Assembly: GCF_013391635.1 (NCBI RefSeq)
Contig: NZ_JACAWU010000001.1
Span: 1,426,001-1,490,000, forward strand
Direction: 5' to 3'
From: Natronomonas gomsonensis
GTDB taxonomy: Archaea > Halobacteriota > Halobacteria > Halobacteriales > Haloarculaceae
Length of the DNA: 64,000 bases
The translations under genes and the position numbers were made by a program. Under the pieces are notes generated by a model. The model made no database searches. It was not told the DNA's origin and saw only the letters and a program-made list of their open reading frames with translations. Below, in pieces: positions 12,984 through 39,523 of the stretch; the first letter of the stretch is position 1, and each line of letters begins with the position of its first letter.

Positions 12984-13115
12984 CACCCACTTTTTGCACG
13001 AGAACGCGGGTCGCGCGCCGGACGGCGCGCGACACCGGTTGCGTGGCGGCGAAGCCGCCACGTAGTAAGGTTGCGGGCAAAGCCCGCAACCCACACGGCA
13101 AAAACTTGGGAAAAA
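12984..13115 (-). repeat. Hairpin-bearing intergenic element, copy A1 (inverted)
   Basis: It begins 4 bp after the gltB stop with CACCCACTTTTTGCACG and ends with CGGCAAAAACTTGGG. Between the boxes are three perfect hairpins in tandem: arms GTCGCGCGCC/GGCGCGCGAC, CGTGGCGGC/GCCGCCACG and GGTTGCGGGC/GCCCGCAACC, each with a 3-4 nt loop. Read on the minus strand it has the same order of boxes as copies A2, B and D (TTTTTGCCG ... CGTGCAAAAAG). The T-run right after the stop could also terminate gltB transcription. Confidence 0.75.
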
Positions 13116-13174
13116 TAGCGCGTACTCCTTTTGTTCGCTTCGCTCGGCGTATACTACCGTCCGTTGTATGCTTA

Positions 13175-13320
13175 GCATCCGCGAGCGACCGTAGGGAGTG
13201 AGCGGTTCGCCGTGCCGAGCGATAGCGAGGCGCGGGACCGAGGCCGGACCGTAGGGAGGGCCGACGTGTCTTTTTCATGAACGTTTTTGCCGGCGCGCGC
13301 AGCGCGCCGTGCAAAAAGGT
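13175..13320 (+). repeat. Hairpin-bearing intergenic element, copy A2
   Basis: It starts with GCATCCGCGAG, has ACCGTAGGGAG twice and GAGGCGCGGGACC, then TCTTTTTCATGAACG, TTTTTGCCG, a hairpin (GGCGCGC-GCA-GCGCGCC) and CGTGCAAAAAGG. It faces copy A1, about 60 bp away, making an inverted pair in the 404-bp gap between gltB and the M14 peptidase gene. No ORF is credible in this gap. Confidence 0.75.
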
Positions 13321-13384
13321 TCGTTTGGATGGGTTTGTCACAACGTTTTGTAAGTGATAGTCGGTCTGCTCGTGTGAGCCACAC

Positions 13385-16300
13385 ATGAGCGACAATGACC
13401 CATTCGACGGTTCGCCGGTGTCGCGCCGGCGGTTCATGCAACTGTCGGCGGCGACCGGTGCCGCCCTGACGCTTCCCGGGAACGCGACGGCCGACGCCAG
13501 CGACTCGGCGTTCTCGACGGAGTATCAGTACGTACTGAACCACACGCCCGAGGACTACGAGGTACCGACGCTGGTTCGATTCTCGGATGCCAGCGGCCCG
13601 GCGGCGATGGAGGGGCTCCTCGATGTCGAGATGGAGACGATTACCTCTCCGGAGCCGGCCGGCTACGCCCAGTTGACGACGACGCAGGCCTCGACCCTCG
13701 CGGAGTTGCCGTCCGCCTCCGAGTTCCAGTTCGCGCCGGGGTCGAACCCGTTCTGGCGTATCGGTTACTACCCCGCAGGGGTCTTCCCGGAACCGCGGCG
13801 GTCGGTCGACTACATCGGTTTCGAGCAGCTGAAGGACGGCCTCGACGTGCTCGAGCAGCGCTATCCCGACCGGATTCGCGTGAAGAACATCGGTCAGTCG
13901 CCGGGCCACACCAACAACGTCACCGACCGCCCCGACCCCAAGGGGATGTACGTCGTCGAGTTGACGAACTTCGATTCGGCGACGGACTTCGAGGACAAGG
14001 AGAAGGTCTTCTTCTCGTGTTCGCTCCACGGACTGGAGATGGCCGGCCGCGAGACCGGCGCTCGGGTGTTGGAGAACGCCGCCCGCGGCTCCGAACCGGA
14101 CGTTCCCGGTAGCGACGCGAAACTCGAACCGTTGCTCGACGACGTGGTCGTCATCATCGGCTTCGTCAACCCCGACGGTTGGGCGGTTCGGAACCCCCAG
14201 TACGATTCGGGGTGGCAGGTCGGCGGCCCCGGGACGGGGACCCCACGGGCGCCGGCCGCACCGCTGTACGAACGCGGCAACGCCGAGGTGTTCGACACGA
14301 ACCGACAGTATCCGGCCGTCGGTTACATCAACCCCGCACACTTCCCGGCGCCCCCGGCCAACTACACTGGCGAGGAACCCACCTTCGTCAACGAGAAGGT
14401 GCCGGACGCGAAGGCGCTCGTCGACTACTTCCAGGACTACGAGAACCTCAACTACGGCGCAGACCTCCACGGCGGTCCCGTGTTCAACAACTTCGTGCTG
14501 GGACTCATTTCACAGGACCAATTCAACACCCGTGAACTGCACGAGGTCTACGAGATGTGTCTCAACATCAACGACACGCTGGCGGAGGCCCTCGACACCT
14601 GGGAGACCGTCGGGCAGGCCCGCGTCGACCTCGTCGGCGACCAGCAGTTCTCGCCGGTGTTGTTCGGCGTCGTCCCGGAGAGCGCCTTCGACTACGCCAC
14701 CATCTACGACACCATCGGCTACACGGTCTCGGGGGCGTTCCTCGACTGGATGGCCCACCCCGAACCCATCGGGCTGGACATGACGACGCTGGACTTCGAG
14801 ATGTCGTTCAACCACATGCTCGGCGGCAACGTCTACAACCCCGAGCTGTTCGAGATGGAAGTCACCGGCTACCGAGCAGCCATCCGAACCATCACGCAGT
14901 TCGCGGTCAACAACACCGACACGCCGACGACCGACGAGCAGTTCAGCACCGAAACCGAGACTGGCGGCGATTCGGTCGCCTACATCACGACGGGCGAACC
15001 CGGGAGCACCGACGATGCCCTGCGACGGACCGAGAGCCAACTGAGTTTCGACTCCGACACCCGGTTCTACGAGACGACTGAGGAGACCGAACTGACCGCG
15101 GACCGCACCGAGTTGACCTTCGACGTGACGGAGGCGGACCTCAACAGCATGGGGGTCCACCTCCACGGACAGGACGTCATCGCGGACCTCGAACTCCGCT
15201 CGCCGTCCGGCGAGACGGTGTACGAGTTCGAGGGCGTCACCGACGAGCGAGTCGGCGGCAAGTGCTGTGGTTTACCGGAGTTCACCGTCAGCGACCCCGA
15301 ACCCGGCACGTGGACGCTCCGCATCGCCAATTACCAGGAAGCTGGCCAACTCGTCGAGATGCAGCGGTGGACGCTAGCCGCTCAGAGCAACCCCGACCCC
15401 TCGAGCGTCGACAGTTGGGGCAACGAGGGATACGAACAGACCGCCTACGACGTGACGCCGTTCCAGTTCTTCGAGGACTACCAGTCCGCCGAGAAGCGCG
15501 GGACCTTGCGGAACTTCATCCAGGATGGCGGCTCGGTGGAACCGGTCACCGTCGAGGACGTAAAGCAGGGTGCACTCGATGGGTACGAGCACGCAGTCCT
15601 CATCCACGACTACGTCTCGCCGACCGAGCGCATCTCCGAGGGCGTCTCGGAGAACGTCGACGCGAACGTCGAGATTACGGAGGGCGTCACCGACGACGAC
15701 TACACCGACGCTCTCGACGACTTCGTCGATTCGGGTGGCAACCTCGTCGTCACCGACACCGGCACGTACGTCCTGCCGGAACTCGACAACGACCTCTTCG
15801 ACGGGTCCGCCATCGGCGAACCCAACGTCCAGCGGCAGTTCCTCGACGTGGCGCGGTACACCGACAAGAACCTCGACCATCCGCTGTTCGACGACAGCGT
15901 CCGACCCATCCAGAACCAACTCTGGAAGGTCCAGCCGCTCGGCTATCAGGTCAGCGGCTCGGCACCGATGGACCTCCTCGACGAGTCGGCCTTCCTCTCG
16001 GCGGCCAACGAGGGTATCGCCTCTGTCGCGGCACGGACCAACGGGCTGGTGGCGACCGGCTCGGTCACCGAGAGCACCGACAGCGGTTGCGGCATCCACT
16101 ACATCTCCTCGCTGCTCCCGCCGGCGACGCAGGCGAACCTCCACCCCTTCGGCCTGCAGAACTACACGGTGACCTTCCTCGGGAACGTCGTGTTCACCTC
16201 GGCGCTCGGATTCACGCAGATTCGTGAGACGGGCGAGACGAAACGCGAGTACGGCCGCGTCGACGACTGGAGCGTCGACCCCGGCGGTGTCGGGGCGACC

Positions 16301-16699
16301 CTCGCCGCGTCCGGGAGCCGGAACGTGGATGCGTCGGCGACGCCCGGCGGACGCGCCAATCGTGTCGAGGTGACCGTCGAGTCGGTCGATACCGATGCCG
16401 ATGCCGTCGAGATTCGGGATTCGTTCCCGCCGGAGTGGGAACTGCTCGAATCGTTCGGTGACGGCGAGAAAGACGGCGACGGCGTCGTCTCCTTCGGCAC
16501 CTTCGACACCGACGACCTCCCCAGCGGCGACGGCGACTCGAAGACGTTCACCTACTTCATCGAATCGCCCGACAGCCCCCAGGAAACCAACGCCTACGAG
16601 GTCGGCCCCGCCGAAGTGCTGGCGACGGTCGACGGCGAGGACCTCTCTGCGACGTTCGCATCGGCGGCGAACGTCGTCGCGGTCGGCGTCTCGCTGTAG
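13385..16699 (+). CDS. Tat-exported M14 zinc carboxypeptidase-like protein with P-type domain
   Basis: 1104 residues. The N-terminus SRRRFMQLSAATGAALTLPG is a Tat signal, so it acts outside the cell. The metallocarboxypeptidase domain has the zinc pair H215 and E218 in SLHGLEMAGRE, substrate residues N306-R307 in DTNRQYP, and the third zinc ligand H362 in DLHGGPV; E472 in TLDFEMS may be the general base. A jelly-roll domain like the P domain of proprotein convertases follows (about 555-670, with EPGTWTLRIANY). About 430 further residues include a GATase-like or Rossmann-like portion and a C-terminal beta domain. No C-terminal membrane anchor is evident. Substrate unknown; peptide scavenging or surface protein processing is plausible. 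Confidence 0.85.
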   Translation: MSDNDPFDGSPVSRRRFMQLSAATGAALTLPGNATADASDSAFSTEYQYVLNHTPEDYEVPTLVRFSDASGPAAMEGLLDVEMETITSPEPAGYAQLTTTQASTLAELPSASEFQFAPGSNPFWRIGYYPAGVFPEPRRSVDYIGFEQLKDGLDVLEQRYPDRIRVKNIGQSPGHTNNVTDRPDPKGMYVVELTNFDSATDFEDKEKVFFSCSLHGLEMAGRETGARVLENAARGSEPDVPGSDAKLEPLLDDVVVIIGFVNPDGWAVRNPQYDSGWQVGGPGTGTPRAPAAPLYERGNAEVFDTNRQYPAVGYINPAHFPAPPANYTGEEPTFVNEKVPDAKALVDYFQDYENLNYGADLHGGPVFNNFVLGLISQDQFNTRELHEVYEMCLNINDTLAEALDTWETVGQARVDLVGDQQFSPVLFGVVPESAFDYATIYDTIGYTVSGAFLDWMAHPEPIGLDMTTLDFEMSFNHMLGGNVYNPELFEMEVTGYRAAIRTITQFAVNNTDTPTTDEQFSTETETGGDSVAYITTGEPGSTDDALRRTESQLSFDSDTRFYETTEETELTADRTELTFDVTEADLNSMGVHLHGQDVIADLELRSPSGETVYEFEGVTDERVGGKCCGLPEFTVSDPEPGTWTLRIANYQEAGQLVEMQRWTLAAQSNPDPSSVDSWGNEGYEQTAYDVTPFQFFEDYQSAEKRGTLRNFIQDGGSVEPVTVEDVKQGALDGYEHAVLIHDYVSPTERISEGVSENVDANVEITEGVTDDDYTDALDDFVDSGGNLVVTDTGTYVLPELDNDLFDGSAIGEPNVQRQFLDVARYTDKNLDHPLFDDSVRPIQNQLWKVQPLGYQVSGSAPMDLLDESAFLSAANEGIASVAARTNGLVATGSVTESTDSGCGIHYISSLLPPATQANLHPFGLQNYTVTFLGNVVFTSALGFTQIRETGETKREYGRVDDWSVDPGGVGATLAASGSRNVDASATPGGRANRVEVTVESVDTDADAVEIRDSFPPEWELLESFGDGEKDGDGVVSFGTFDTDDLPSGDGDSKTFTYFIESPDSPQETNAYEVGPAEVLATVDGEDLSATFASAANVVAVGVSL

Positions 16700-16750
16700 G
16701 CTTCACTCGCCGTCCACACCCTTTTTCGCCGCGGGGAACCAGCCACCGGT

Positions 16751-17746
16751 ATGACAGACCACGCGCTCGTCATCGGTGGCACACGATTCATCGGCCGACA
16801 CACCGTCGAGGAGTTCCTCGATGCGGGCTACGACGTGACGATTTTCAACCGCGGTAACCACGATAACCCCTTCGCCGACGACGACCGGGTTGCCCACGTC
16901 TCCGGCGACCGGACCAACGAGGCGGAACTCCGTCGGGCGGGACTCGACATCGACCCCGACGTCGTCGTCGACTGCGTCGCCTACTACCCACGCGACGTCC
17001 ACACGGCGACCGACATCTTCAGCGACGTCGACGCCTACGTCTACATCTCCTCGGGGGCGGCCTACGGCGACGAGCGGATTCCGAAACGCGAGGGGGAGAC
17101 GGCGCTGTGTGACTGCTCGACCGAGCAGGCGGTCGACGACTCGATGGACTCCTACGGCCCCCGGAAGGCAGAGGGCGACCGTGCGGTGTTCGCCGCCGCC
17201 GACCGCGGCGTGAACGCGATGGCTGTCCGGCCGCCGGTCGTCTACGGCCCCTACGACTACACCGAACGGTTCAACTACTGGATCGACCGCGTCGAGAACC
17301 ACGACCGCATCGTCGTTCCCGGTGACGGGACGAACCTCTGGCACCTCGTCTACGTGAAGGACGTGGCCTCGGCACTCCGGACCGTCGCCGAGGAGGGTTC
17401 GGCCGGCGAGGCGTACAACGTCGGCGACGGCCACGCGCCCGTCCTCGGCGAGTGGGTCGAGTTACTCGCCGACGCCTGCGAGACAGATGTCGAGACGGTT
17501 CACGCGAGCGAGCGGGAACTCGGCGCGGTCGGACTGTCGCTGGACGATTTCCCCATCTATCGGGGGTACCCGCACCTGCTGGAGACGAGCAAGCTTCGGG
17601 CGCTGGGCTGGGAGTCGACGCCTCACGAGACGGCGGTGGCGGAGACGGTCGAGGACTACCGCAACTCCGGCCGAACGGGGCGGGACAACGGCCCGGACCG
17701 CGAGACGGAAGCGCGCTTACTCGACGTACTGGAGACGGTCCAGTAG
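16751..17746 (+). CDS. NAD-dependent epimerase/dehydratase family protein
   Basis: 331 residues of an extended short-chain dehydrogenase. The N-terminal nucleotide site is VIGGTRFIGR (G-x2-x2-G), followed by FNRGNHDNPF at the end of strand 2. S-G-A-A-Y in the YISSGAAYG segment and YGPRKAEGD supply the Tyr-x3-Lys-like catalytic pair (Y-G-P-R-K). The next signature, VRPPVVYGPYD, is typical of nucleotide-sugar epimerases and isoflavone-reductase-like members. The gene stands 37 bp before glycerol-1-phosphate dehydrogenase, same strand. Substrate not evident; a nucleotide sugar is the default guess. Confidence 0.85.
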   Translation: MTDHALVIGGTRFIGRHTVEEFLDAGYDVTIFNRGNHDNPFADDDRVAHVSGDRTNEAELRRAGLDIDPDVVVDCVAYYPRDVHTATDIFSDVDAYVYISSGAAYGDERIPKREGETALCDCSTEQAVDDSMDSYGPRKAEGDRAVFAAADRGVNAMAVRPPVVYGPYDYTERFNYWIDRVENHDRIVVPGDGTNLWHLVYVKDVASALRTVAEEGSAGEAYNVGDGHAPVLGEWVELLADACETDVETVHASERELGAVGLSLDDFPIYRGYPHLLETSKLRALGWESTPHETAVAETVEDYRNSGRTGRDNGPDRETEARLLDVLETVQ

Positions 17747-17783
17747 GGGGAACGGTTTTTACCTGTCCTCGCACACGTCCGCT

Positions 17784-18842
17784 ATGTTCGAGAAGTCGTC
17801 GTGGATTCGCCTGCCGCGAAGCGTCGTCGTCGGTCACGGCGTCCTCGACAGCGCCGTCGAGGTCATCGACGAGTTGTATCTCACCGGACGGCCGCTCATC
17901 GTCACCTCGCCGACGCCGGAAGAGTTGGCCGCCGACCGCCTCGTCGAGGCCTTCGAGGCCGCCGGCTTCGACCCCGCGATAGCTATCGTCGAGGAAGCCA
18001 CCTTCTCAGCCGTCGAAGAGGTCTTGGAGACGGCCGAAGCGGTCGATGCGGGCTTTCTCATCGGGTTGGGCGGCGGCAAGCCAATCGATATCGCGAAGAT
18101 GGCGGCCGACGAGCGCGGCTGTGGGTTCGTCTCGGTACCGACAGCAGCCAGCCACGACGGCATCGTCTCCGGTCGGGGGTCGGTACCGGACGGCGACAGC
18201 CGCCACTCCGTCGCCGCCGACCCACCGCTTGCGGTCATCGCCGACACCGAACTCATCGCCGAGGCGCCGTGGCGGCTGACGACCGCGGGGTGTGCCGACA
18301 TCATCTCCAACTACACGGCGGTGAAGGACTGGCAGTTGGCCCACCGGCTGAAGAACGTCGAGTACAGCGAGTACGCCGGTGCCCTCTCACAGATGACAGC
18401 CGAGATGCTCGTCGAGCAGTCGGGGTCCATCAAACGCGGCTTAGAGGAGTCGGCGTGGGTAGTCGTGAAGGCGCTGGTGTCCTCGGGCGTGGCGATGTCG
18501 ATTGCGGGTTCCTCGCGGCCCGCCTCTGGTGCCGAACACCTCATCTCCCACCAGTTGGACCGCATCGCACCCGGAGCGGCGCTGCACGGCCACCAGGTCG
18601 GCGTCGCCTCCATCGTCACGGAGTACCTCCACAGCGGCGAACGCGGGGAGTGGCACCGCGTCCACGATGCGCTGGCCGGCATCGACGCGCCGACGACCGC
18701 CGAGGACCTCGGCATCGACCCCGAGCAGTTCATCGAAGCGATGACGACGGCCCACGAGATTCGGGACCGCTACACCATCTTGGGTGACGGCATCGAGGAG
18801 GACGCCGCAATCGAGGCGGCGACGGTCACCGGCGTCCTGTAA
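17784..18842 (+). CDS. egsA: sn-glycerol-1-phosphate dehydrogenase
   Basis: 352 residues from MFEKSSW. It reduces dihydroxyacetone phosphate to sn-glycerol-1-phosphate, the first committed step for the archaeal lipid backbone. Seen here are the nucleotide loop GLGGGKPIDIAK and the zinc ligands in SHDGIVS (Asp), GAEHLISH (His) and LHGHQVG (His), the standard set for this iron-alcohol-dehydrogenase-like family. The length is normal. An earlier in-frame start would overlap the preceding gene by 260 bp, so the ATG at 17784 is used. Confidence 0.95.
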   Translation: MFEKSSWIRLPRSVVVGHGVLDSAVEVIDELYLTGRPLIVTSPTPEELAADRLVEAFEAAGFDPAIAIVEEATFSAVEEVLETAEAVDAGFLIGLGGGKPIDIAKMAADERGCGFVSVPTAASHDGIVSGRGSVPDGDSRHSVAADPPLAVIADTELIAEAPWRLTTAGCADIISNYTAVKDWQLAHRLKNVEYSEYAGALSQMTAEMLVEQSGSIKRGLEESAWVVVKALVSSGVAMSIAGSSRPASGAEHLISHQLDRIAPGAALHGHQVGVASIVTEYLHSGERGEWHRVHDALAGIDAPTTAEDLGIDPEQFIEAMTTAHEIRDRYTILGDGIEEDAAIEAATVTGVL

Positions 18843-18890
18843 GGTTCCGGATTGGACGGGTTTATGAGGCTCCCGAACATCGACCTGTCA

Positions 18891-19364
18891 ATGAGTTCTC
18901 CCGATATCTCCGGCGGCGTCTCCGCCTATCTGGACGCGCTCTACGAGCGATACGAGGGGTTCGACGTACAGCAGACGACGGTGTCCGTCGACAGCGAGGA
19001 GTTCGACTCGGTCGACACCCGCAGCGACATCGCGGAAGTTCGGGTTCGTGTCGAAGGTGCCGACGGCGTCTTGGCCGTCAGCGGCGACGACGAGTGGGTG
19101 ACCCCCGGCGGTGTCGTCGAGGCGGGTGGGTCACTGCCGGCGGCGGCACGGGAACTCGTCGAGCGACAGACCGGCGTCGACTGCCGAATCGAGACACTCG
19201 AGCGCGTCTCGTTGGTGTGTCTGCAGTGTGACGCCTCCGAGCGAGAGGTGTGGCAACTCTCGGCGCTGTTCGAGGCGAGTGCCGACGGCGACGCCGAAAC
19301 CACGACACCCGCCGAGGGGGCCGCGTGGCGACAGAGCGTCTCGGAGTCCTCGGCCGCGTTCTAG
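18891..19364 (+). CDS. Nudix-fold protein with degenerate Nudix box
   Basis: 157 residues from MSSPDIS. The start is chosen because a TTTAT box lies 27 bp upstream, as in leaderless haloarchaeal genes; ATG 18864 is an alternative. Residues about 70-95 (TPGGVVEAGGSLPAAARELV) align with the Nudix box G-x5-E-x7-R-E-U-x-E-E-x-G-U. One Glu is Gly and the final Glu-Glu is Glu-Arg, so metal binding may be lost. A Cys pair (VCLQCD) sits in the C-terminal half. It overlaps the convergent acetyltransferase gene by 4 bp. Confidence 0.7.
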   Translation: MSSPDISGGVSAYLDALYERYEGFDVQQTTVSVDSEEFDSVDTRSDIAEVRVRVEGADGVLAVSGDDEWVTPGGVVEAGGSLPAAARELVERQTGVDCRIETLERVSLVCLQCDASEREVWQLSALFEASADGDAETTTPAEGAAWRQSVSESSAAF

Positions 19365-19885
19365 CGGTCCGTGGCCAGCAGACCGTACCGGACCACGTCG
19401 ACGCGTTCGCCGTCGACGTAGCCGTGTTTCCGGAAGCGACCCTCCTCGACGAAGCCGTTCTTCTCGAGGACCCGCTGACTCGCCTCGTTGGTCGCGAGGG
19501 CGTCCGCACTCAGTTTCTCGAGGCGGCGCTGGTCGAAGGCGTACTCGACGAGCAACGAGACCGCGGCCGTCGCATACCCCTGGCCGTGGGCGTCGGGGTC
19601 GACGTAGTAGCCGATCTCGGCGATACCCCAACTCGGGTCGATGCCATTGAGGCCGACGATGCCGACGGGGTCGCCGTCGTCACAGATGAGCAGGTGGACC
19701 TCGCCGTCGGCGGTGACGACGTTTTCGTAGAACGCCTGCTCGTCGGCCATCGTCTGGGGGTCGGCGTTGAACAGCGACCGCCAGACGCGTGGGTCGTTGA
19801 CGAGTCGGTGGAGGAACGGCAGGTCGTCTTCCTCGACCGTGTGGAGGTCGACCGTATCGCCGCGGAGGAAGGCTGGACCGGGCAT
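19361..19885 (-). CDS. GNAT N-acetyltransferase, RimJ/RimL type
   Basis: 174 residues. It starts with the typical RimJ-like opening FLRGDTVDLHTVEEDDLPFL and carries VGIVGLNGIDPSWGIAEIGY, then YVDPDAHGQGYATAA, the acetyl-CoA binding segment (Q/R-x2-G-x-G/A). ATNEASQRVLEKNGF and EGRFRKHGYVDG match the C-terminal half of RimJ-family enzymes. It probably acetylates an N-terminal amine of a protein or a small amine; the substrate cannot be read from sequence. It converges on the Nudix-like gene with a 4-bp overlap. Confidence 0.88.
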   Translation of the reverse strand: MPGPAFLRGDTVDLHTVEEDDLPFLHRLVNDPRVWRSLFNADPQTMADEQAFYENVVTADGEVHLLICDDGDPVGIVGLNGIDPSWGIAEIGYYVDPDAHGQGYATAAVSLLVEYAFDQRRLEKLSADALATNEASQRVLEKNGFVEEGRFRKHGYVDGERVDVVRYGLLATDR

Positions 19886-19995
19886 ATTTCCCTCGTGGAC
19901 GGAGAGTGAATTGAAACTATCGGCAGTATGTTACAGATTAGCACATAACGTCGCCAACCCGACAGCGAAAAGGGGGAGCCACCCACCCATTGGGT

Positions 19996-20679
19996 ATGGG
20001 AACGCCGCTGGAGCCACGCGAGGAACAGGTCGTCGAGGTACTCGAGCGACTGTACGAGCAGTACCCCGACCCCGAAATCTCACTCGATTTCTCGAACCGA
20101 CTTGAGTTGCTCATCGCGGTGATGCTGTCCGCACAGTGTACCGACGAACGCGTCAACAAGGTCACCGCCGACCTCTTCGAAAAGTACGACGGGCCGGAAG
20201 CGTACGCCGCGGCCGACCAAGAGGAACTCGCCGAGGACATCAACTCGATCACCTACTACAACAACAAGGCGAAGTACATCCGCTCGGCGTGTGACGACAT
20301 CGTCGAGAAACACGGCGGCGAGGTTCCCGACACGATGTCGGCGTTGACCGACCTCGCGGGCGTCGGCCGCAAGACGGCCAACGTCGTCCTCCAGCACGGG
20401 CACGACCTCACGGAGGGAATCGTCGTCGACACCCACGTCCAGCGCATCTCGCGGCGCCTCGGAATCACGGAGATGCGGTCCCCGGAAAACATCGAGGAGG
20501 ATTTGATGGGCATCGTCCCCGAGGACGACTGGAAGGAGTACACCCACCTGCTCATCAGCCACGGACGGGAGACCTGCACCGCCCGGAACCCGGACTGTGC
20601 CGGCTGTGTGTTGGCCGACATCTGTCCCTCCGAGAAGGGCGACGGCGCCGTCGACCTCGCCGACGGCAGCGAGTGGTGA
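19996..20679 (+). CDS. nth: Endonuclease III (DNA glycosylase/AP lyase)
   Basis: 227 residues from MGTPLEP (a TTG two codons earlier is unlikely). It excises oxidised pyrimidines and cuts the abasic site. The helix-hairpin-helix LAGVGRKTANVV carries the catalytic lysine K126, and D145 is in GIVVDTHVQR. The C-terminal 4Fe-4S loop has C194, C201, C204 and C210 in the standard C-x6-C-x2-C-x5-C spacing. Length and order match bacterial and archaeal Nth. MLSAQCTDERVN is the usual early helix. It converges on the membrane protein gene downstream. Confidence 0.96.
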   Translation: MGTPLEPREEQVVEVLERLYEQYPDPEISLDFSNRLELLIAVMLSAQCTDERVNKVTADLFEKYDGPEAYAAADQEELAEDINSITYYNNKAKYIRSACDDIVEKHGGEVPDTMSALTDLAGVGRKTANVVLQHGHDLTEGIVVDTHVQRISRRLGITEMRSPENIEEDLMGIVPEDDWKEYTHLLISHGRETCTARNPDCAGCVLADICPSEKGDGAVDLADGSEW

Positions 20680-20697
20680 AAACCGGGGCGCCGACCG

Positions 20698-22982: not shown

Positions 22983-22984
22983 CC

Positions 22985-30166: not shown

Positions 30167-30376
30167 GCATCCGCGAGGGCGGCGAAGCCGCCCGATGCGG
30201 TTCACGCCGCGCGAACGGAATGAGCGCGGCGGCAAGGCGGGTGACCGTAGGGAACCCGCCGCTGCTTTTTCATCGACGTTCGGAAGACGCCGATGGCGTC
30301 TTCCGAGCCCATCAGAAATCTCCGATTTCTGAGGGCGTTTTTGCCGGGTCGGCTGCGCCGACCCGTGCAAAAAGGT
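30167..30376 (+). repeat. Hairpin-bearing intergenic element, copy B
   Basis: It starts with GCATCCGCGAG and GACCGTAGGGA, shared with A2 and D, then GCTTTTTCATCGACG, three hairpins (GGAAGACGCC/GGCGTCTTCC, CAGAAATC/GATTTCTG, GGGTCGGC/GCCGACCC, each 3-nt loop) with GCGTTTTTGCCG between the second and third, and CGTGCAAAAAGG at the end. An additional hairpin GGGCGGC/GCCGCCC sits near the start. It lies between the M42 peptidase and the second halocyanin, in the 282-bp gap with no gene. Stems differ from those of the other copies. Confidence 0.75.
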
Positions 30377-30423
30377 CGGCGCGAATGAACAGATTCAGTA
30401 CGGGGTGGTGGCAAAAGGTCGGT

Positions 30424-31044: not shown

Positions 31045-31072
31045 CGGACGCTCACGGCGAAATGCGGCGTTT

Positions 31073-31573: not shown

Positions 31574-31613
31574 ACCTCTCGTTAGGGTGGCGATGTGGTA
31601 AGCGTTGGCCCGA

Positions 31614-32552
31614 CTACAGGCGGTCGGCGACGGTTTCGACCGCCTCGATGCCGTGGACTTCGCCGCCGAGTCGCGGCACGAGCGTCAACGGTAGTTCGAA
31701 GCGCTCGCGGGCCTCCTCGATGCGCTTCTGTTGGCTCTCGTGGGTGTCCTGACAGAGGTCACAGCCGGGTGTCGGGTCCTCGATGACCTTGTTGACGATG
31801 GCCCGACTCGCCGGGATGTCGTAGCGCTCTAACTCCGCGAGCAGGCGCTCGGTCTCCAACACCGCCATCGTCTCGGGGATGAGCACGACGCGGAATTCCG
31901 TCCGCTCGGGGTCACGCAACACCGCCGCGACGCGCTCCATGCGGTCCTGTAACTCTTCGAGGTCGATGTCGGCCTCGGTGTCGGTGTCGTCGTCATCGTC
32001 CTCGCCCGACCCCACGAAACTCCGAACGGAGTCGGCGAGACTCGACACCTGCGAGCGGACCGAGATGAGTTTCCCCATCGCCGAACTCATCACGTCGGGG
32101 AGTTTGAGCAGCCGGAGGGTGTGACCCGTCGGCGCGGTGTCGAAGACGATGTACTCGTAGCGGGGGTCGTCCATGTAATCCAGAAAGAGGTCCAACGCGG
32201 CGGCTTCGTCGGTTCCCGGCGCGACGCCGGCTTCGAGGACGTCGTCGACGTCGCTTTGGTCCAGAGAGATGCCGAGGTCTTCGAGTTCTTCGAGTGCGGC
32301 GCCGACCTGTCCGCGGTACTGGCCGATGCGGTCCTCGGGGTCGATTTCGACGCCCCAGAGGTCGACATCATCGCGGATTCGCGTCGGTTCGTCGTCGACC
32401 GGGGCGTCGAAAACGTCCGAAAGCGAGTGTGCGGGGTCCGTCGAGACGACGAGCGTCGAGTGTCCCTTGCGGGCGTACTTCAACGCGGTCGCGGCCGCAC
32501 AGGTGGTCTTGCCGACGCCGCCTTTCCCGCCGTAGAGTACGTACTGCGTCAC
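31614..32552 (-). CDS. ArsA/Get3-family ATPase
   Basis: 312 residues. The deviant P-loop GGKGGVGKTT (about 9-18) defines the SIMIBI ATPases of this family; STDPAHSLSD is the ArsA/Get3 switch I and DTAPTGHTLRLLKLPD the following signature. A CxxC pair in TPGCDLCQDTHESQQ is the zinc-binding dimer motif of Get3. That favours a tail-anchored protein targeting factor over an arsenite pump, and no arsenite genes are nearby. One internal acidic loop (GSGEDDDDDTDTEADIDLEE) is a haloarchaeal-style insert. Divergent from the FAD protein. Confidence 0.9.
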   Translation of the reverse strand: MTQYVLYGGKGGVGKTTCAAATALKYARKGHSTLVVSTDPAHSLSDVFDAPVDDEPTRIRDDVDLWGVEIDPEDRIGQYRGQVGAALEELEDLGISLDQSDVDDVLEAGVAPGTDEAAALDLFLDYMDDPRYEYIVFDTAPTGHTLRLLKLPDVMSSAMGKLISVRSQVSSLADSVRSFVGSGEDDDDDTDTEADIDLEELQDRMERVAAVLRDPERTEFRVVLIPETMAVLETERLLAELERYDIPASRAIVNKVIEDPTPGCDLCQDTHESQQKRIEEARERFELPLTLVPRLGGEVHGIEAVETVADRL

Positions 32553-32636
32553 GTGCGCTTGTACGGCGCCGTCGGCTTAAACCGTCCCCCGGTCCGAACC
32601 GGGGCGTTTGTAGGGAGTGGGAGAAAACGGCCGAGC

Positions 32637-33401
32637 ATGAGCGAAGACGATACCCCCCGCGTCGCCGTCATCGGCGGCGGCGTCACCGGACTGACCGCAG
32701 GAACCTTTCTCGCACGAGCGGGATTCGACACCGTCGTCGTCGACCACGGCGAATCCCTCCTTCGCCGGAACGCCCACCTCGAAAACGTCCCCGGGTTTCC
32801 GGCCGGCGTCAACTCTCGGCTGTTCCTCGAGTTGCTCGAAGCCCAGGCGGGCCGCAACGGCTGTCTGTTCGAACAGGGACTCGTGACGAACCTCGAACCG
32901 GACGGGGAGGCGTTCCAGCTCCGCGTCGAGGGTGACGAGGAGTTCGACCTCCGGGCCGACTACGTCCTCGTGGCGTCGTGGGCCGACACCGACTATCTCG
33001 AGGCCATCGACGGCGTCGGACTCACCAAACGCGGCTCGAAGACGTACGTCGACATCGACGACGACGGCCGGACAGGCGTCGACGGGCTGTATGCGGCCGG
33101 TCGCATTGCCGAGAAGGCCCACCAAACCGTCGTCTGTGCGGGCCACGGCGCCGACGTGGCGCTGACGCTCGTCGACGACTCCGAAGTGCCGTACTACCAC
33201 GACTGGGTCGCCCCGGAGGGGTACTTCACCGAACGGGGCCGGGAGGTGCCGCCGGGGTGTGAGGAAATCGACGAAGAAGAGCGCCGCCGCCGCGAGCGGG
33301 AGTCGATGGAGGTGATGGTCGAGGCGTTCGAAGACCACCACCCCGACGAACCGACGATGCATCCGAGCGTCGTCGAGAAGCGCCGCGAAGACGGGGCGTA
33401 A
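32637..33401 (+). CDS. FAD-dependent oxidoreductase, thioredoxin-reductase-like, no CxxC
   Basis: 254 residues from MSEDDTP; the upstream open frame is antisense to the ArsA gene. GGGVTGLTAGTFLARAGF is the FAD-binding Rossmann motif and VDGLYAAGRIAE the second FAD motif. The NADPH domain and redox CxxC of true thioredoxin reductases are missing. It is shorter than TrxR (about 310). The C-terminal 60 residues are charged and helical (EEIDEEERRRRERESMEV). Electron partner unknown. Confidence 0.78.
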   Translation: MSEDDTPRVAVIGGGVTGLTAGTFLARAGFDTVVVDHGESLLRRNAHLENVPGFPAGVNSRLFLELLEAQAGRNGCLFEQGLVTNLEPDGEAFQLRVEGDEEFDLRADYVLVASWADTDYLEAIDGVGLTKRGSKTYVDIDDDGRTGVDGLYAAGRIAEKAHQTVVCAGHGADVALTLVDDSEVPYYHDWVAPEGYFTERGREVPPGCEEIDEEERRRRERESMEVMVEAFEDHHPDEPTMHPSVVEKRREDGA

Positions 33402-33406
33402 CGAAC

Positions 33407-33838
33407 TCAGTACTCGAAGTCGGTGTCGATGTCCCGACCGGTTTCGGTCATCTCGACGGCGGCCTCGCTGTACTGGAGTACTTTCTGCATGTCGCCTTCG
33501 ATATCGAACTCCCCGGACATCATGCCGTCGACGGGGCCGAGTTCGCCCTGGAACAGCCGAACCCAGTTGGAGTAGGGACCGCGGAAGACGAAGCCGTAGT
33601 CCTCCTCTTCGGGGTCGGTCACCTCGTAGGCGTCCGTACACTCGCCGTTCTCCAAGCCGAGGAAGAAGTACACCTCATCGCCGTCGTAGGCGTCGTCGGG
33701 TTCGACGACGAAGAGGAAATCGCCGTTGAAGCCATCGCCCCAGCCATCGCTTGCGGCGTCGTAGTCGTCGTTGTCGTTGAGCAACTCGCCGTACTCTGAA
33801 ATCCAGGCGTCTCCGTCGCTTGGGAACTGAATCGCCAT
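33407..33838 (-). CDS. SCP2 sterol-carrier-like protein
   Basis: 143 residues from MAIQFPS; the frame runs 15 codons further upstream. The pattern GFNGDFLFVVEPDDAYDGDEV, then FRGPYSNWVRLFQGEL, then GMMSGEFDIEGDMQKVLQY is the SCP2-like lipid-binding fold (five-strand sheet plus helices). Very acidic. Its role in archaea is unknown; lipid or quinone binding is a reasonable guess. It converges on the FAD gene with a 5-bp gap. Confidence 0.75.
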   Translation of the reverse strand: MAIQFPSDGDAWISEYGELLNDNDDYDAASDGWGDGFNGDFLFVVEPDDAYDGDEVYFFLGLENGECTDAYEVTDPEEEDYGFVFRGPYSNWVRLFQGELGPVDGMMSGEFDIEGDMQKVLQYSEAAVEMTETGRDIDTDFEY

Positions 33839-33985
33839 ACATGTCGTGGAACTCCACAACGGATTGGCTGTTCTCCCGTGCATGCGGCGTGGGTTTAAGC
33901 CTCGTGGGAGGAAGTGTCACGATTCGGGCCGTGACGCCCGATGACGGCACGATGGTTTTTATTCGGGGGCGTCGAACGTCCGCCG

Positions 33986-35143
33986 ATGCTCGATGGTGTC
34001 AACGTCGCGCTCGGGGTGTCGGGTTCCATCGCGGCGGTGAAGACGGTCGAACTGGCCCACGAACTCCGACGACAGGGCGCCGACGTGCGTGCGGTGATGA
34101 CCGACGCGGCGACCGGTATCATTCACCCGTGGGCCCTGGAGTTCGCCACCGACAACCCGGTCGTCACCGAAATTACGGGGTCGGTCGAACACGTCGAGTT
34201 GGGCGGCTACGACGGGTGGGCCGACGTGTTATTGTTGGCGCCGTCGACGGCCAACACCATCGGAAAGGTCGCGAGCGCCGTCGACGATACACCAGTGACC
34301 ACGACCGCGACGACGGCCCTCGGTGCTAACCTCCCCGTCGTCGTCGCCCCGGCGATGCACGCGCCGATGTACGACCACCCCGGCGTACTCGACGCCATCG
34401 AGACGCTGGAGTCGTGGGGCGTCGAGTTCGTCGACCCGCGACTCGAAGAGGGGAAAGCCAAGATTGCGGCCGAGGAGTCGATAGTCCTCGAGGTGGCGCG
34501 TTCGACGAGCGACCGGTCGCTCGCCGGGAAACACGTCGTCATCACGAGCGGTGCGACGAGCGAGTCCATCGACCCGGTTCGGGTGCTGTCGAACCGGTCG
34601 TCGGGACGGACCGGTCGGGCAGTCGCGAAGGCCTGCTACGTCCGCGGTGCCGACGTGACCGTGGTCCACGACGGTCCGGACCTACCGTACGCCGACGTAA
34701 TCGAGGTCGAAAGCGCCGCCGAAATGCTCGATGGCGTCCGCTCGGTCGTCGACGATGCCGACGCGCTCGTCTCGGCGGCCGCAATCAGCGACTACACCGT
34801 CGAGGCGGCGCCCGAGAAGATACGCTCCGGTCAACAGTTGTCGCTCGACCTCGAACCGACGCCGAAACTCATCGATACGATTCGCGCCGACTACCCGGAG
34901 CTACCCATCGTCGGGTTCAAAGTCGAAACGTCGGGCGACGACGACGCCCTCGTTGAGAAGGCCCGCGAGACGTTCGAACGGGCCGACCTCGACTTCGTCG
35001 TCGGCAACGACGCGAGCGTGATGGGAGAGGACACCAGCCGAATCCTGCTGGTCCGGCCGGATTCGGTCGCGAGCCACCGAGGCAGCAAGACCGAAATCGG
35101 CGGGCACGTTGCCGATGCGCTCGCGGCCGAGTTGACTGAGTGA
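33986..35143 (+). CDS. coaBC: Bifunctional phosphopantothenoylcysteine decarboxylase/synthase
   Basis: 385 residues, the usual length for fused CoaC-CoaB. It converts 4'-phosphopantothenate to 4'-phosphopantetheine for CoA. CoaC half: GVSGSIAAVKTVELAHELRR (FMN site) and VVVAPAMHAPMYDHP, the PxMxxxM substrate segment. CoaB half from about 185: HVVITSGATSESIDPVRVLS, then NRSSGRTG, the nucleotide loop. The start is ATG 33986, at a TTTTTATTC promoter-like box 25 bp upstream. 48 bp before the pilin-like gene. Confidence 0.95.
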   Translation: MLDGVNVALGVSGSIAAVKTVELAHELRRQGADVRAVMTDAATGIIHPWALEFATDNPVVTEITGSVEHVELGGYDGWADVLLLAPSTANTIGKVASAVDDTPVTTTATTALGANLPVVVAPAMHAPMYDHPGVLDAIETLESWGVEFVDPRLEEGKAKIAAEESIVLEVARSTSDRSLAGKHVVITSGATSESIDPVRVLSNRSSGRTGRAVAKACYVRGADVTVVHDGPDLPYADVIEVESAAEMLDGVRSVVDDADALVSAAAISDYTVEAAPEKIRSGQQLSLDLEPTPKLIDTIRADYPELPIVGFKVETSGDDDALVEKARETFERADLDFVVGNDASVMGEDTSRILLVRPDSVASHRGSKTEIGGHVADALAAELTE

Positions 35144-35191
35144 GCGGTGCCCGAACGAGGACTTTTGCAGGTCGGTGGTGAACGCGCAAGC

Positions 35192-35602
35192 GTGTTCGAC
35201 GACCGCGCGCAGAACGAGGTGACCGGAATGGTCGTCATCGTCGGCTTAGCGGTTATTCTGTCGCTGTTCTTCGGATTCGTCGTCTTCCAGAACTTCACGA
35301 CGCCCGGCGACGACGTTCCGAAGGTCGCCTTCGAATACACCCACGACGAGGCGGCCGAGGAGCTCACAATCGCCCACAACGCCGGTGATGCCTTCGCCGC
35401 CGACGAGGTGTTCGTCCTCGTCCGTGACGCCAACGGGAGCGTCACCGGTACTCGGGTGTGGGGTGGCTCCGGAACGGTCAGTTCGGGTGATTCAATCACC
35501 GTCGACGGGGTCGAACGCGGTGCGAGCGTTCGCATCGTCTGGGTAGCGGGCGCCGGCGAACGCACCTACGTCATCGGTCGGTGGGGCGGGTCGAGTTCGT
35601 AG
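35192..35602 (+). CDS. Type IV pilin-like protein
   Basis: 136 residues from GTG 35192 (FDDRAQNEVTGMVVIVGLAV). A start at GTG 35147 would add 15 residues without resemblance to any pilin leader; TTTT at 35163 fits a promoter for the shorter form. The short charged leader, the Glu then hydrophobic helix of about 20 residues resemble haloarchaeal pilin leaders (..RAVSPVIGVILMVAIT..) cut by PibD, though the canonical SPV/I-G is here NEVTG. The remainder is a small all-beta domain. Likely a secreted or pilus-associated surface protein. Confidence 0.65.
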   Translation: MFDDRAQNEVTGMVVIVGLAVILSLFFGFVVFQNFTTPGDDVPKVAFEYTHDEAAEELTIAHNAGDAFAADEVFVLVRDANGSVTGTRVWGGSGTVSSGDSITVDGVERGASVRIVWVAGAGERTYVIGRWGGSSS

Positions 35603-35645
35603 TCGCTCGGAGTTTTTATACCGGCAGGACCGCTTGGGGGTATCG

Positions 35646-36128
35646 ATGCGCTCGGACCGAGCCGTCGTCGTCGCCACCGTTGCCGTCGTCATCGGCGTGA
35701 CCGTGGCGTCGGGGCCCCTCGTCGGCGTCTCGCTGACCGACGAGCAGTCGTTCGCTCCGGGGTCCGGAACCGCGAACGTCACCGTCGAGACGGTTCCCGA
35801 CACCGCGACGCTCACGCAGTCGAACTACGGCTCCGGCCCCTACACCCTCCGTCTCGACCCTGCTCGGATTCGCGTCTCGTCGGTGTCTGGCCAACCGACG
35901 GTCGCCTACGAACTCGCTGTCGACGGGTTGAACCACTCCCGAACGAGCGTGACGTTCCTCGACGATGGCTACGAGGGCCGCTACGACCTCGCCTTTTCGG
36001 CCTCCACGATAGCGCCCGACCGAGTCGACGAAACGCGATACGACGGGACGGTTCGGGTCTACGTCTACGACGAGCGGAGTGACCGTCTGCTGGTCGAACG
36101 CGACATCTCCATCGAGGTGAAACGGTGA
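35646..36128 (+). CDS. Putative exported protein of unknown function
   Basis: 160 residues from MRSDRAV. One N-terminal hydrophobic helix (about 6-28) may be a signal peptide or anchor. The rest is a mostly beta, Thr/Val/Asp-rich domain (PYTLRLDPARIRVSSVSG, then YDGTVRVYVYDERSDR). It overlaps the next gene by 4 bp (GTGA). No family recognised; it likely works with the adjacent polytopic protein and pilin-like gene. Confidence 0.6.
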   Translation: MRSDRAVVVATVAVVIGVTVASGPLVGVSLTDEQSFAPGSGTANVTVETVPDTATLTQSNYGSGPYTLRLDPARIRVSSVSGQPTVAYELAVDGLNHSRTSVTFLDDGYEGRYDLAFSASTIAPDRVDETRYDGTVRVYVYDERSDRLLVERDISIEVKR

Positions 36129-37945
36129 ACCGACGGATTCGACGACTCGGTCATGCCGTTTTCGGCGACCGATGCGGCGTCGTACTCTTCCTCGCGACGC
36201 TTTCGGTGTACGCCGTCTACTGGCGAATCGGTATCGTCATCACCGACAGCTACACAGTCGCGAACGCCCTCGTTGCGGTCGCTGACGGCCACCTGTATCT
36301 CGACGACGCCGTCTACGGAGCCGGCCTGGAGACGCCCGGAACCGGGACGGTCGACGGACGGCTGTACGGCCGCAACTACGGGCAGGTGTTTCTCGCCGTG
36401 CCGTTCCTGTTGTTCGTGGAGGCGATGGCCGCCGTCGCCGACCTCCGGGTCGCACTGGCGGCCGTCTGGGCGCTCCTCGTCGTCGGCCTCGCTCGCTTGG
36501 TCGGCCGGGAACTCGACCGCCCGAAGTACGCGGCCTACGTCGGAAGCGCTCTCGCTCTGACGGGCTTTGCCGCTGCCATCGCCGGCACGACGACCATCGA
36601 CGCCGACCGCCACTACCTCATCGCACTCCAGATGCAGACGATGGTCGCTGCCGCACTCGTCGGTGTCGTCTGCTATCGCCTCCTCGCGCGAGTCTACGAC
36701 CGCCGAATCGGCTTCGCCGGTGGGGTCGCCGCGAGCTTGGCGACGCCCGTCGGCTTCTGGGCACAGTTCCCGAAGCGCCACGTCCTCGTCACGCTGTGTG
36801 TCGTCGCTTCGATGTACCTCCTGTATCGGAGTCGCGAGGGCGACGCCGTCGACGTTCGGTTTCGCGCCGCCGCCTACGTACCGGTCGGCGTCGCGGCGTG
36901 GGTTAGTGCCGCCGAAGGAGTGATTCTCCTCCTCGCGTTGCTCGCAGTGGACGTGCCGACGGCCGGTCGAGACCTCCGGTCGCTCGTGACTGCCGGGGCG
37001 ACGTGTGTCGTCTCCGTCGTCCCGATGTTCGTGACGAACTATCTCATCAGCGGCAACGCCGCACAACCCCCAAGGGTGCTCAGCGCCGGCGGCGACGGGA
37101 GTCTCGCCGGTGACAACTCGGGGTCCTCGTCTGGGACGGAAGCGACTCCACAATCGTCTGGGACGGAAGCGACTCCACAACCGGGCTCGGAGACCCTCGA
37201 CACGTTCATCGGGGCTACCGAGGTCGTTCTCCGACTGTTCGACTCCGGTATCGAGACACTCGTCGGCGAATCCGGTCGGCTGTATCACACCTTCGTTCGA
37301 GGTGGCTACATCGCCGACGTTGCGGCCCGTGACGCCGGTGAAGCGATTCGGCTCGCCTTTCTCGAAGCGATGCCGCTGGCGGCGGCGTTGCTCGCGGTCC
37401 CTATCATCGCGGTTCGGACGGATTTCGGCGCTCGCCTCCGCTCGGCTCTGGAGAACCGCCGACTCTCGGCGCTGGGTACCGTCGATGCCTTCGTCGCGGT
37501 CTATGCGACGGCGCTGACGCTGGTCTATCTGCCGCGGCTCCCGCTCCATGCGACCATCACTGTCCGATATCTCCTCGCGCTGTTCCCTATCGCGGTGTAC
37601 GCCCTGGTACGGATGGGGTCCGTCAGGCGTGTCCTCGCGGAGCGACTCTATTTGGCTGTCTTCACCTACGCCTCGGGCGTCCTCATCGGCGGTCAACTGC
37701 TCGTCGTCTACCTGTGGGTCGTCGATGCGACGCGGGGGGAGGCAGTCCAGACTCACGCCCTCGTCGGACTTGGCACCGCAGCGTTGCTCGCCGGGTGGAC
37801 GCTCTTCGACACCACCGGCCGCCGTGCGGACCGCTTCGGCGCCGTCGCACTCGGGCTGGCGGCCGCCTCGGGCACCGTCTTCCTACTTTTGGCGGGACTG
37901 TGGCACTTCGCCTTCGTCGGCGGACGGGCACTTCCCTTCGGGTAA
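36125..37945 (+). CDS. Polytopic membrane protein, possible GT-C-like
   Basis: 606 residues, GTG start overlapping the previous stop. About 12 hydrophobic helices. An early [19 protein letters not shown] segment, with an acidic residue in the first external loop, is like GT-C glycosyltransferases or dolichol-linked mannosyltransferases, but no clear catalytic motif can be named. A Ser/Gly/Thr-rich external loop (residues about 325-355) contains an exact 27-bp tandem duplication (37127-37180). Probably a surface glycan or lipid-processing protein; confidence low beyond 'membrane protein'. Confidence 0.6.
37127..37180 (+). repeat. Exact 27-bp tandem duplication inside membrane protein gene
   Basis: Two identical 27-bp units (37127-37153 and 37154-37180), each encoding SSGTEATPQ, are placed head to tail in the loop-coding part of the 606-residue protein. 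In-frame, so the protein stays intact. A recent slippage event or a variable-length linker is likely. Confidence 0.85.
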
Positions 37946-37989
37946 GTCACTATCGTCAACTTTTACCGCTCGCTTCCTGTACGCCGGAC

Positions 37990-38559
37990 ATGGATCAGCT
38001 TCAGCAGTCGCTGCTGGAGGCGCCGATTATCGAAAAGGACGGCTACCACTACTTCGTCCACCCGATAAGCGACGGCGTCCCAATGCTCGAACCGAGCCTC
38101 CTGCGCGAGATCGTCATCAAAATCATCCGTAAAGCGCAACTCGAAGACGTCGACAAAATCGTCACGCCCGCGGCGATGGGTATCCACATCTCGACGGCCG
38201 TCTCGTTGATGACCGACATCCCGCTCGTCGTCATCCGAAAGCGGGAGTACGGACTCGACGGCGAGACACCGTTGTTCCAAGAAACCGGCTACTCCGAGAA
38301 CCAGATGTTCATCAACGACGTCGAATCGGGCGATAACGTCCTCGTTCTCGACGACGTGCTCTCGACGGGCGGCACCCTCACCGCCATCTGCGGCGCCCTC
38401 GAAGATATCGGCGCCGACATCGTCGACGTGGTCGCCGTCATCAAGAAGGTCGGCGGCGAGAACAAACTCGAAGACTCCCCCTACACCGCCAAGACGCTCA
38501 TCAACGTCGACGTCATTGACGGCGAGGTCGTCATCGTCGACGAAGACGGCGACTTCTAA
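37990..38559 (+). CDS. hpt: Purine (hypoxanthine/guanine) phosphoribosyltransferase
   Basis: 189 residues from MDQLQQS. The PRPP-binding motif is [13 protein letters not shown], preceded by [16 protein letters not shown] and [12 protein letters not shown]. The sequence is of the archaeal adenine-PRTase-like family annotated as HGPRT in haloarchaea. It salvages free purine bases to IMP or GMP. Base specificity cannot be set from sequence alone. Its stop is directly followed by repeat element C. Confidence 0.88.
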
Positions 38560-38561
38560 AA

Positions 38562-38643
38562 CACCCACTTTTTACGAGGAGGGGTTTCCTCGCTCCCTTC
38601 GGTCGCTGCGGGAACCCCACCTCGCAAAAACTTGGGGAAAAAA
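38562..38643 (-). repeat. Hairpin-bearing intergenic element, copy C (inverted)
   Basis: It begins 2 bp after the hpt stop with CACCCACTTTTTACGAG and ends with CGCAAAAACTTGGGG, as in copy A1 (CACCCACTTTTTGCACG ... GGCAAAAACTTGGG). Its stem pairs GAGGAGGGGTT with AACCCCACCTC around a longer loop. The following 70 bp (CGCTACGCTCGGCGTATGCTAC) match the sequence beyond A1 (TTCGCTCGGCGTATACTAC). It may double as the hpt terminator. Confidence 0.75.
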
Positions 38644-38770
38644 CGACCCGGCGGCTCGGCCTCCGGCCTCGCCGCCGGTGAAACGCCTCGCTACGCTCGG
38701 CGTATGCTACGCTTGTGGTTAATATCACACCGTAGAGCGGTCAGTAGACGTACGCACTTACCGCAGGGAA

Positions 38771-39178
38771 TTATTGTAATTCATGGGGGCCACATGCGGT
38801 CTGCCTGACCCGAATTGTGACCCCTCCCCACTCGCTGGGAATATATTTTCGCGCCCGGGGCACACAGGTCACATCCACCACGATGATGAGTTCCCCATCT
38901 GCTGGCTTTTGTCCCATCGAACATCGCCATGGATGACCGTCTACAGCGTGCCAAAGCGCATCTTGAATTGTATCAGCCCGATCCCAGTGTTCGTCTTCAG
39001 TAGCCGCCTCAGTCTCGTAATCGGGGAGGGCATCACGGATTTCGGAAGCCGAGTTCGCATCTTCCGGCACTGATGAGACGCATCCCGATACTGTGTTCGA
39101 TGCGATTTCAACGCAGCCGGAAAGACAGACCAAGCCCCCTCCAATCGCCCCCAATACAGTCCGCCGACGGAGAGCCAT
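38771..39178 (-). CDS. Tat-type lipoprotein of unknown function, in AT-richer island
   Basis: 135 residues. The signal ALRRRTVLGAIGGGLVC ends in the lipobox LSGC, so the mature protein is a lipid-anchored surface protein. Four further cysteines (GCVSS, RCSMG, TCVPRA, TACGPH) could form disulfides. No family recognised. It sits between inverted element copies C and D, in DNA with visibly lower G+C than the flanks (38735-39300). That placement suggests acquired DNA. Confidence 0.6.
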   Translation of the reverse strand: MALRRRTVLGAIGGGLVCLSGCVEIASNTVSGCVSSVPEDANSASEIRDALPDYETEAATEDEHWDRADTIQDALWHAVDGHPWRCSMGQKPADGELIIVVDVTCVPRARKYIPSEWGGVTIRVRQTACGPHELQ

Positions 39179-39316
39179 AGCTATCTCTCCGTCAACGTAT
39201 ATGTTAAATCCTGTGACAGAATCAATCGCAAATGAAGGCCATACCCTCCTGATTTCGGACTACTACCCTTGAAAAGCCATTTTAACCTGTACTGACTGGT
39301 TAAGAACACATCACGA

Positions 39317-39523
39317 GCATCCGTGAGCGCCGCGGGCGCGAGCGGCTCCACCACGCCAACCGTAGGGAGGCGCGGGACCAAGGCCCGACTGCAAGGAGGG
39401 GCGCAGTGTCTTTTTCATCGAAGTGGTTCGAGAGTCGCCAGAGGTGACTCTCGTTATCCAGCGAATCGCCGCTGGCGATTCGCACGGATTTTTGCCGCTC
39501 GCCGCAGGCAACCGTGCAAAAAG
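39317..39523 (+). repeat. Hairpin-bearing intergenic element, copy D
   Basis: Opening GCATCCGTGAG, CCGTAGGGAGGCGCGGGACC (as in A2), TCTTTTTCATCGA, hairpins GAGAGTC/GACTCTC and GCGAATCGCC/GGCGATTCGC, then GGATTTTTGCCG and CCGTGCAAAAAG. It ends 11 bp before the tRNA-Met 3' end. The 138 bp between the lipoprotein start and this element are AT-rich and hold no gene. Confidence 0.75.

Follow-up and report, generated by a model that had tools for sequence, protein, structure and literature searches.

Bacterial two-way intrinsic terminators are arranged as an A tract, a hairpin and a T tract, an order that places a T tract after the hairpin on each strand. Repetitive extragenic palindromic (REP) sequences and bacterial interspersed mosaic elements (BIMEs) have a stem of conserved sequence together with a conserved tag and are linked to Y1 transposases of the REP-associated tyrosine transposase (RAYT) type. 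For archaea, the account in PMC7237163 reports that a T5C tract terminates 95% of transcripts in a Haloferax volcanii reporter. Here we describe a family of intergenic elements from a 64-kb window of the Natronomonas gomsonensis genome (G000:C1:1426001-1490000, the whole stretch of DNA analysed, from a genome of 3.38 Mb). Five elements in the window, two on the reverse strand and three on the forward strand, read as one family, and their stems differ widely in sequence from copy to copy. We think it probable that they are dispersed two-way T5 terminators at gene ends, with hairpins that turn over by template switching and by copying between loci.

Read forward, an element opens with GCATCCGCGAG and continues through hairpin A, GCGGTT, hairpin B, hairpin C with its GACCnnnGGGA tip, a TTTTTCAT box and a 4-base outer stem (GAAC/GTTC, CGAA/TTCG or CGAC/GTCG) to an end hairpin bounded by TTTTTGCC and GTGCAAAAAG. 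The end hairpin has the same order on each strand: T tract, hairpin, A tract. Extra hairpins can lie ahead of the end hairpin or within the hairpin C tip, and the GCATCC end and hairpin C tip recur as modules at unrelated loci. The hairpins nested inside the hairpin C tip (L012, L010/L135/L314 and L317) differ in presence between close relatives. A CATCAGAAATC-nnn-GATTTCTGA sub-block is common to the own-genome copies L002, L008 and L016, and the L008 loop is inverted in genome G001.

Pattern searches located further copies well beyond the window. A core pattern of T5-GCC-hairpin-GTGC-A5-G matched 16 copies in the N. gomsonensis genome, with none for the same pattern reversed, and three in the window against a mean of 0.00 in 100 shuffles. 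The end-hairpin pattern occurred in 21 of the 116 genomes in a search of relatives that included the source genome (191 matches in total, with a maximum of 50 in G002) and in 32 of 392 genomes drawn from the order. A covariance model of hairpin C and the end hairpin (R1) gave matches at E ≤ 0.001 in 15 of 20 genomes of the genus. Seven genomes had 20-59 matches, four had 3-17 and nine had 0-2; these are hits rather than copies, since some elements were matched on both strands, and scoring covered 150 candidates in each genome. The additional copies that an earlier note on this DNA had proposed to seek with a covariance model were found, and the family's distribution is patchy even within the genus. 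Among the at least 80 loci listed from a contig scan, seven are haloarchaeal by name: Natronomonas sp. CBA1123 (three), Halorarius litoreus, Halorientalis pallida and two Halobacteriales metagenome-assembled genomes. We take the other listed loci, mostly from bacteria of many phyla, as chance matches. Viral contigs searched with a 22-base junction pattern gave no matches. The same R1 match, with the same surroundings and predicted gene coordinates, occurs at L040 (G000:C1:24769-27865) and L041 (G000:C2:1755621-1758717), reflecting either a duplication or an assembly overlap.

The position of the elements relative to genes is strict. From 21 genomes, 124 of the 191 matches to the pattern were retrieved and placed against gene calls from our own codon-score finder, which detects no RNA genes and overlooks some other genes. 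No copy lay inside a predicted gene (0/124). Ninety-six copies face a stop codon; 81 of them end 2-9 nucleotides (nt) from a stop codon on the opposite strand, so that the gene is followed shortly, on its own strand, by T5, as in archaeal T-tract terminators, and 88 end within 23 nt. Another 27 copies face a start, 20 of them at 43-49 nt before it, and one further copy has no neighbour. When ten loci, mostly position outliers, were scanned with Rfam, six had the end of a non-coding RNA 4-12 nt away: signal recognition particle (SRP) RNA at L037, L316 and L088 (three genomes; L037 was found by R1 and does not belong to the 124), RNase P RNA at L057 and L077 (two genomes) and tRNA-Met at L009 (one genome). 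L309 has the L009 flank, including the tRNA-Met sequence. Of the other scanned loci, L001 has a tRNA that does not adjoin the element, and L006, L058 and L071 have no RNA.

Element-bearing gaps (n = 118) were convergent in 56 cases, tandem in 58 and divergent in 4; the other gaps of at least 40 nt at the same loci were convergent in 5, tandem in 84 and divergent in 56. T5 is scarce elsewhere, occurring within 200 nt of 7 of the 51 listed window genes, with four of these seven inside elements. This placement at gene ends suggests a terminator role and, by analogy with T5C activity in Haloferax, T5 tracts facing both ways are likely terminators. Polymerase arriving from the neighbouring stop codon or end of a non-coding RNA would meet T5 within about ten bases; polymerase from the other side would cross hairpins A-C and T5C before reaching a second T5. 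The T-hairpin-A order would fit a polymerase that halts at T tracts. Adjacent genes, from 20 proteins scanned, include thermosome, AAA proteins such as PAN, EF-2, Cdc6 and S19e. In two cases (L016/L111 and L067/L096), the same two-gene gap holds elements in opposite orientation relative to the genes.

We then asked how the hairpins vary. Alignment A2 contains eight of the 16 own-genome copies and replaced alignment A1, which was dropped for its inclusion of L001 and L006, which shift the hairpin C stem, and L004, in which that stem is unpaired. L002, L008, L009, L012 and L016 fell outside the own-copy alignments, having inserts or no hairpin C. In A2, 99.0% of 208 cells were paired; 33 had changed on both sides, against 10.6 in shuffles (0/500), and 0 of 208 on one side, with 17 further pair types against 13.6 (22/500). 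Alignment A3 was built from 22 unique 37-base cores by taking one for each stem, which gave 13; the other nine repeat a stem with a different loop. Here 98.6% of cells were paired, 25 had changed on both sides, against 8.5 in shuffles (0/500), and 1 of 208 had changed on one side. The A3 counts of pairs with a both-side change (5 against 3.8; 29/500) and of further pair types (9 against 8.6; 270/500) are weak or no evidence of covariation. The clamp beside T5 covaries across the 20 genus genomes, with a summed count of 154 for GC/GC and counts of 12 for CC/GG and 4 for GC/GG; CC/GC has a single match, which spans two T5 tracts. Together, the alignments and clamp counts bear out the earlier note's observation that stems change, and they support a family that changes its stems while keeping their pairing.

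Covariation of this kind would also be expected of a structured RNA family, acting as 3' untranslated region stabilisers or small RNAs and selected for RNA folding, and hairpins A-C lie ahead of T5C on the forward strand, where a transcript would include them. The pairs themselves argue otherwise. Among the pairs predicted for 94 unique end-hairpin cores, G-U made up 12 of all 1592 and 12 of the 934 variable ones outside the clamp (1.3%), in a set whose exact-box search pattern is biased to intact clamps. The folds predicted for three SRP RNAs and two RNase P RNAs of the source genome and related ones gave 65 of 557 (11.7%), and shuffled cores gave 126 of 1031. The one-sided cells of A2 and A3 likewise give no sign of variation through G-U intermediates. 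Loops are mostly 3 nt rather than tetraloops: this length occurs in 72 of the 77 end hairpins and in 99 of the 115 remaining hairpins of the elements, compared with 249 of 756 elsewhere in the loci; GNA accounts for 41/72, 48/99 and 18/249 of these 3-nt loops, respectively. GNA loops are described as forming very stable DNA mini-hairpins (PMC4686876). ViennaRNA energies, with RNA or DNA parameters, did not separate the loops of the two strands, so the GNA argument draws on the counts and on the descriptions in PMC4686876 and PMC6479982. By eye, many stems also contain tandem G-A mismatches in a CGAG context.

Two further points speak against an RNA family: on either strand the first T5 precedes the end hairpin, and a tRNA was the only Rfam match in the window at gathering score. 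The latter agrees with the earlier note, which knew of no named family, and we found no description of such a family in the open-licence literature searched. We thus consider selection for RNA folding unlikely. The rare G-U pairs and 3-nt GNA loops look like DNA-level pairing or direct copying; the earlier note had left RNA and DNA open, and the covarying structure it recognized holds, with the balance now towards DNA.

Close relatives reveal how the hairpins turn over. All 16 own-genome flanks that we queried have a counterpart in G010, at 90-99% DNA identity. As read by eye, the end hairpin is kept at 13 of these sites (imperfectly at one), reduced to a broken remnant at two and lost at one, and at ten of the 13 kept sites the stem differs. 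In the reverse comparison, six G010 flanks had an element in G000 at three sites, a broken one at one and none at two; the two empty flanks belong to the G010 double element L138, where the G000 gap is 52 nt. Among 23 loops on matched stems, G001 included, 14 were identical, eight were exact inversions with the stem kept and one was a double substitution. Eight of the nine changed loops are thus exact reverse complements, or seven of eight distinct ones once the double entry of L006 is allowed for. In this comparison of 21 sets, some identical rows may be coding flanks, and L010 enters three times among the identical loops and L006 twice among the inverted. Beyond the 23, we identified inversions by eye at L009/L176 (two, one of them also in a whole-locus comparison) and at L011/L307 (one).

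Whole cassettes are replaced as well. L037 and L316 share 144 identical bases through T5 and 19 identical bases from A5 onward, and L185 and L134 differ by 4 substitutions in the 125 bases upstream of the replaced cassette; three of 16 sets were without an anchored G000 partner and gave no comparison. Identical cassettes recur inside genomes in 28 pairs, against a shuffled-label mean of 10.8 (0/500). Template switching, as set out in PMC8794818, predicts loop inversion and multi-base compensatory change. We propose that the hairpins are maintained at the DNA level as near-perfect inverted repeats, that template switching inverts loops and rewrites an arm using its partner as template, and that hairpin cassettes are copied between loci with the T5 and A5 tracts as limits. 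Copying between loci was added because both arms can be replaced only if a second copy acts as donor. Comparison of close relatives shows inverted loops and replaced cassettes; the mechanism behind both, the donor step and the function of the end hairpin are inferred.

A miniature inverted-repeat transposable element (MITE)- or REP-like mobile hairpin that inserts behind genes, without a role of its own, would share several of these properties, being dispersed, high and patchy in copy number and represented by shared cassettes within genomes. There is also one presence/absence site, L138/L184. This single filled/empty pair has no clear target duplication, G000 and G010 have most compared sites in common while the stems change, and the elements avoid divergent gaps and closely meet non-coding RNA ends. 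The search for a source transposon was limited to Y1, and Y1 transposase was rejected as a partner because its numbers do not track element copy number across the 20 genomes, some of them incomplete: G011 (88% complete) has 20 R1 matches and no Y1, and G003 has no R1 matches and four Y1. The mobility signal raised in the earlier note is weak, and we doubt that insertion of such an element explains the family.

Template switching might alternatively perfect hairpins without selection, as a neutral by-product of facing T5 terminators of neighbouring genes that form inverted repeats by themselves. Convergent genes would supply the T5/A5 arms, and the loop inversions agree with template switching as described in PMC8794818; set against this, 58 of the 118 element-bearing gaps are tandem rather than convergent, and the GCATCC end and hairpin C tip are found again at unrelated loci. 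We judge this origin very improbable. Slightly better placed, though still quite unlikely, is a dedicated haloarchaeal DNA-hairpin exchange, in which an enzyme recognizing shape (GNA-looped hairpins with T5/A5 borders) rather than sequence would swap or flip cassettes between gene-end elements. If true, such an enzyme would diversify hairpin identity while the terminator form stays fixed.

Several observations weigh against two-way terminators with hairpins renewed by template switching and copying. The nine genus genomes with 0-2 R1 matches must terminate otherwise, and the lost, broken or absent copies in the G000-G010 comparison mean that single copies are dispensable. The reverse-strand T5 of promoter-side copies serves no known gene, and efficient T5 termination would leave the end hairpin mostly untranscribed. 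Six of 12 position outliers (L001, L007, L058, L071, L074 and L076) are without explanation. An earlier whole-locus comparison of 3-6-nt loops gave 10 identical loops, 4 single substitutions, all in 4-5-nt loops, and 3 inversions. Furthermore, 23 of the 28 identical within-genome pairs come from G002, and strain-to-strain recombination could be another source of cassette replacement.

Within the window, all five copies named by the earlier note are present, with corrections: elements 1 and 4 lie on the reverse strand, GCATCCGCGAG is exact in two copies and reads GCATCCGTGAG in a third, and the last end hairpin is imperfect. R1 recovers all three forward elements. Element 1 (12984-13170, reverse strand) lies behind the glutamate synthase gene, which ends at 12980, and CCCAC begins after 5 more bases. 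Its end clamp pairs CCCACTTTTTGC (12986-12997) with GCAAAAACTTGGG (13098-13110), GAAAAATA at 13110-13117 reads T5C on the reverse strand, and the inner hairpins occupy 13006-13036, 13043-13061 and 13069-13091. It has the boxes TTTTTCCC, TTTTTGCC and CGTGCAAAAAG on the reverse strand and was not reported by R1. That elements 1 and 4 run on to about 13170 and 38710 is our judgement of the far ends of the reverse copies.

Element 2 (13172-13322, forward strand) stands tail to tail with element 1. It carries GCATCCGCGAG at 13175-13185 with hairpin A, hairpin B at 13212-13236, hairpin C with a GACCGTAGGGA tip at 13242-13262 and a T5C box at 13269-13278. The outer stem GAAC (13279-13282)/GTTC (13319-13322) surrounds the T5 clamp and end hairpin at 13284-13318 on the forward strand, a clear example of the cassette: TTTTT-GCCGGCGCGC-GCA-GCGCGCCGTGC-AAAAAG. 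The core ends 66 nt upstream of the ATG at 13385 in the open reading frame list, or 117 nt by our own gene finder's start, which makes this element a position outlier. The pair at 12984-13322 and L138 each consist of two tail-to-tail elements in a gap flanked by tandem genes, with one element towards the stop codon and the other towards the promoter; at the first of these sites G010 has one end hairpin.

Element 3 (30167-30378, forward strand) begins with GCATCCGCGAG after the M42 peptidase gene (end 30141). Hairpins A, B and C lie at 30177-30193, 30206-30230 and 30236-30260, followed by a T5C box at 30266-30273, a CGAC/GTCG outer stem, two extra hairpins at about 30280-30306 and 30310-30334, and the end hairpin at 30338-30374. 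Its core ends 49 nt upstream of 30424, where a plastocyanin-family gene is predicted to start. Element 4 (38562-38710, reverse strand) follows a phosphoribosyltransferase gene (end 38559), CCCAC beginning after 4 more bases. Its clamp pairs CCCACTTTTT (38564-38573) with GCAAAAACTTGGGG (38624-38637), T6 lies at 38638-38643 on the reverse strand, hairpins lie at 38648-38678 and about 38683-38704, and the boxes are diverged forms. It is a weak R1 match (C1:1464563-1464668, reverse strand, E 0.12); L021/L049, a sister copy of its form, has an R1 E of 4.8e-4. Element 5 (39317-39527, forward strand) has a T5C box at 39411-39416, extra hairpins at 39430-39452 and 39461-39483, and an end hairpin at 39489-39523 with an imperfect inner stem. 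Its core ends 9 nt from the end of a tRNA-Met (ARAGORN, 39533-39610, reverse strand; Rfam, 39535). ARAGORN also places a tRNA-Arg (ccg) at 3773-3863, where Rfam made no report at gathering score.

The family joins two questions: how archaea stop transcription where gene ends crowd together, and how perfect hairpins stay paired as their letters change. Because close relatives supply countable natural hairpin events, template switching and short-tract copying could become directly measurable. The family also cautions that strong covariation does not necessarily identify a functional RNA.

As in bacterial two-way intrinsic terminators, a single hairpin serves both strands; unlike those, the elements have a T tract that precedes the hairpin on each strand. 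For the hairpin inversions of chloroplast genomes, we know of no T5/A5 module or cassette replacement. The likeness to these inversions, the subject of PMC2903610, lies in their occurrence at spacer palindromes. The T5C terminators of Haloferax volcanii, on the account in PMC7237163, share T5 or T5C just behind genes with no hairpin needed before it, whereas the elements are a repeated module with T5 on both strands around variable hairpins. REP sequences and BIMEs, the subject of PMC3733652 and PMC2817692, are similarly dispersed, palindromic and outside genes; in our family the stem sequence is not conserved and Y1_Tnp numbers do not track those of the elements. Loop inversion and multi-base compensatory change link the elements to the template-switching hairpins of PMC8794818, which are described there from rRNA genes, whereas ours are intergenic, belong to a dispersed family and have entire cassettes replaced. 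The intergenic repeats of halovirus HF2 are also between-gene repeats in a haloarchaeal system, but as described in PMC8707807 they are 29 or 58 bp long, carry AT-rich motifs and were tested as promoters. Terminators and non-genic repeats are already known; what is new, to our knowledge, is a dispersed terminator family with replaceable hairpins.

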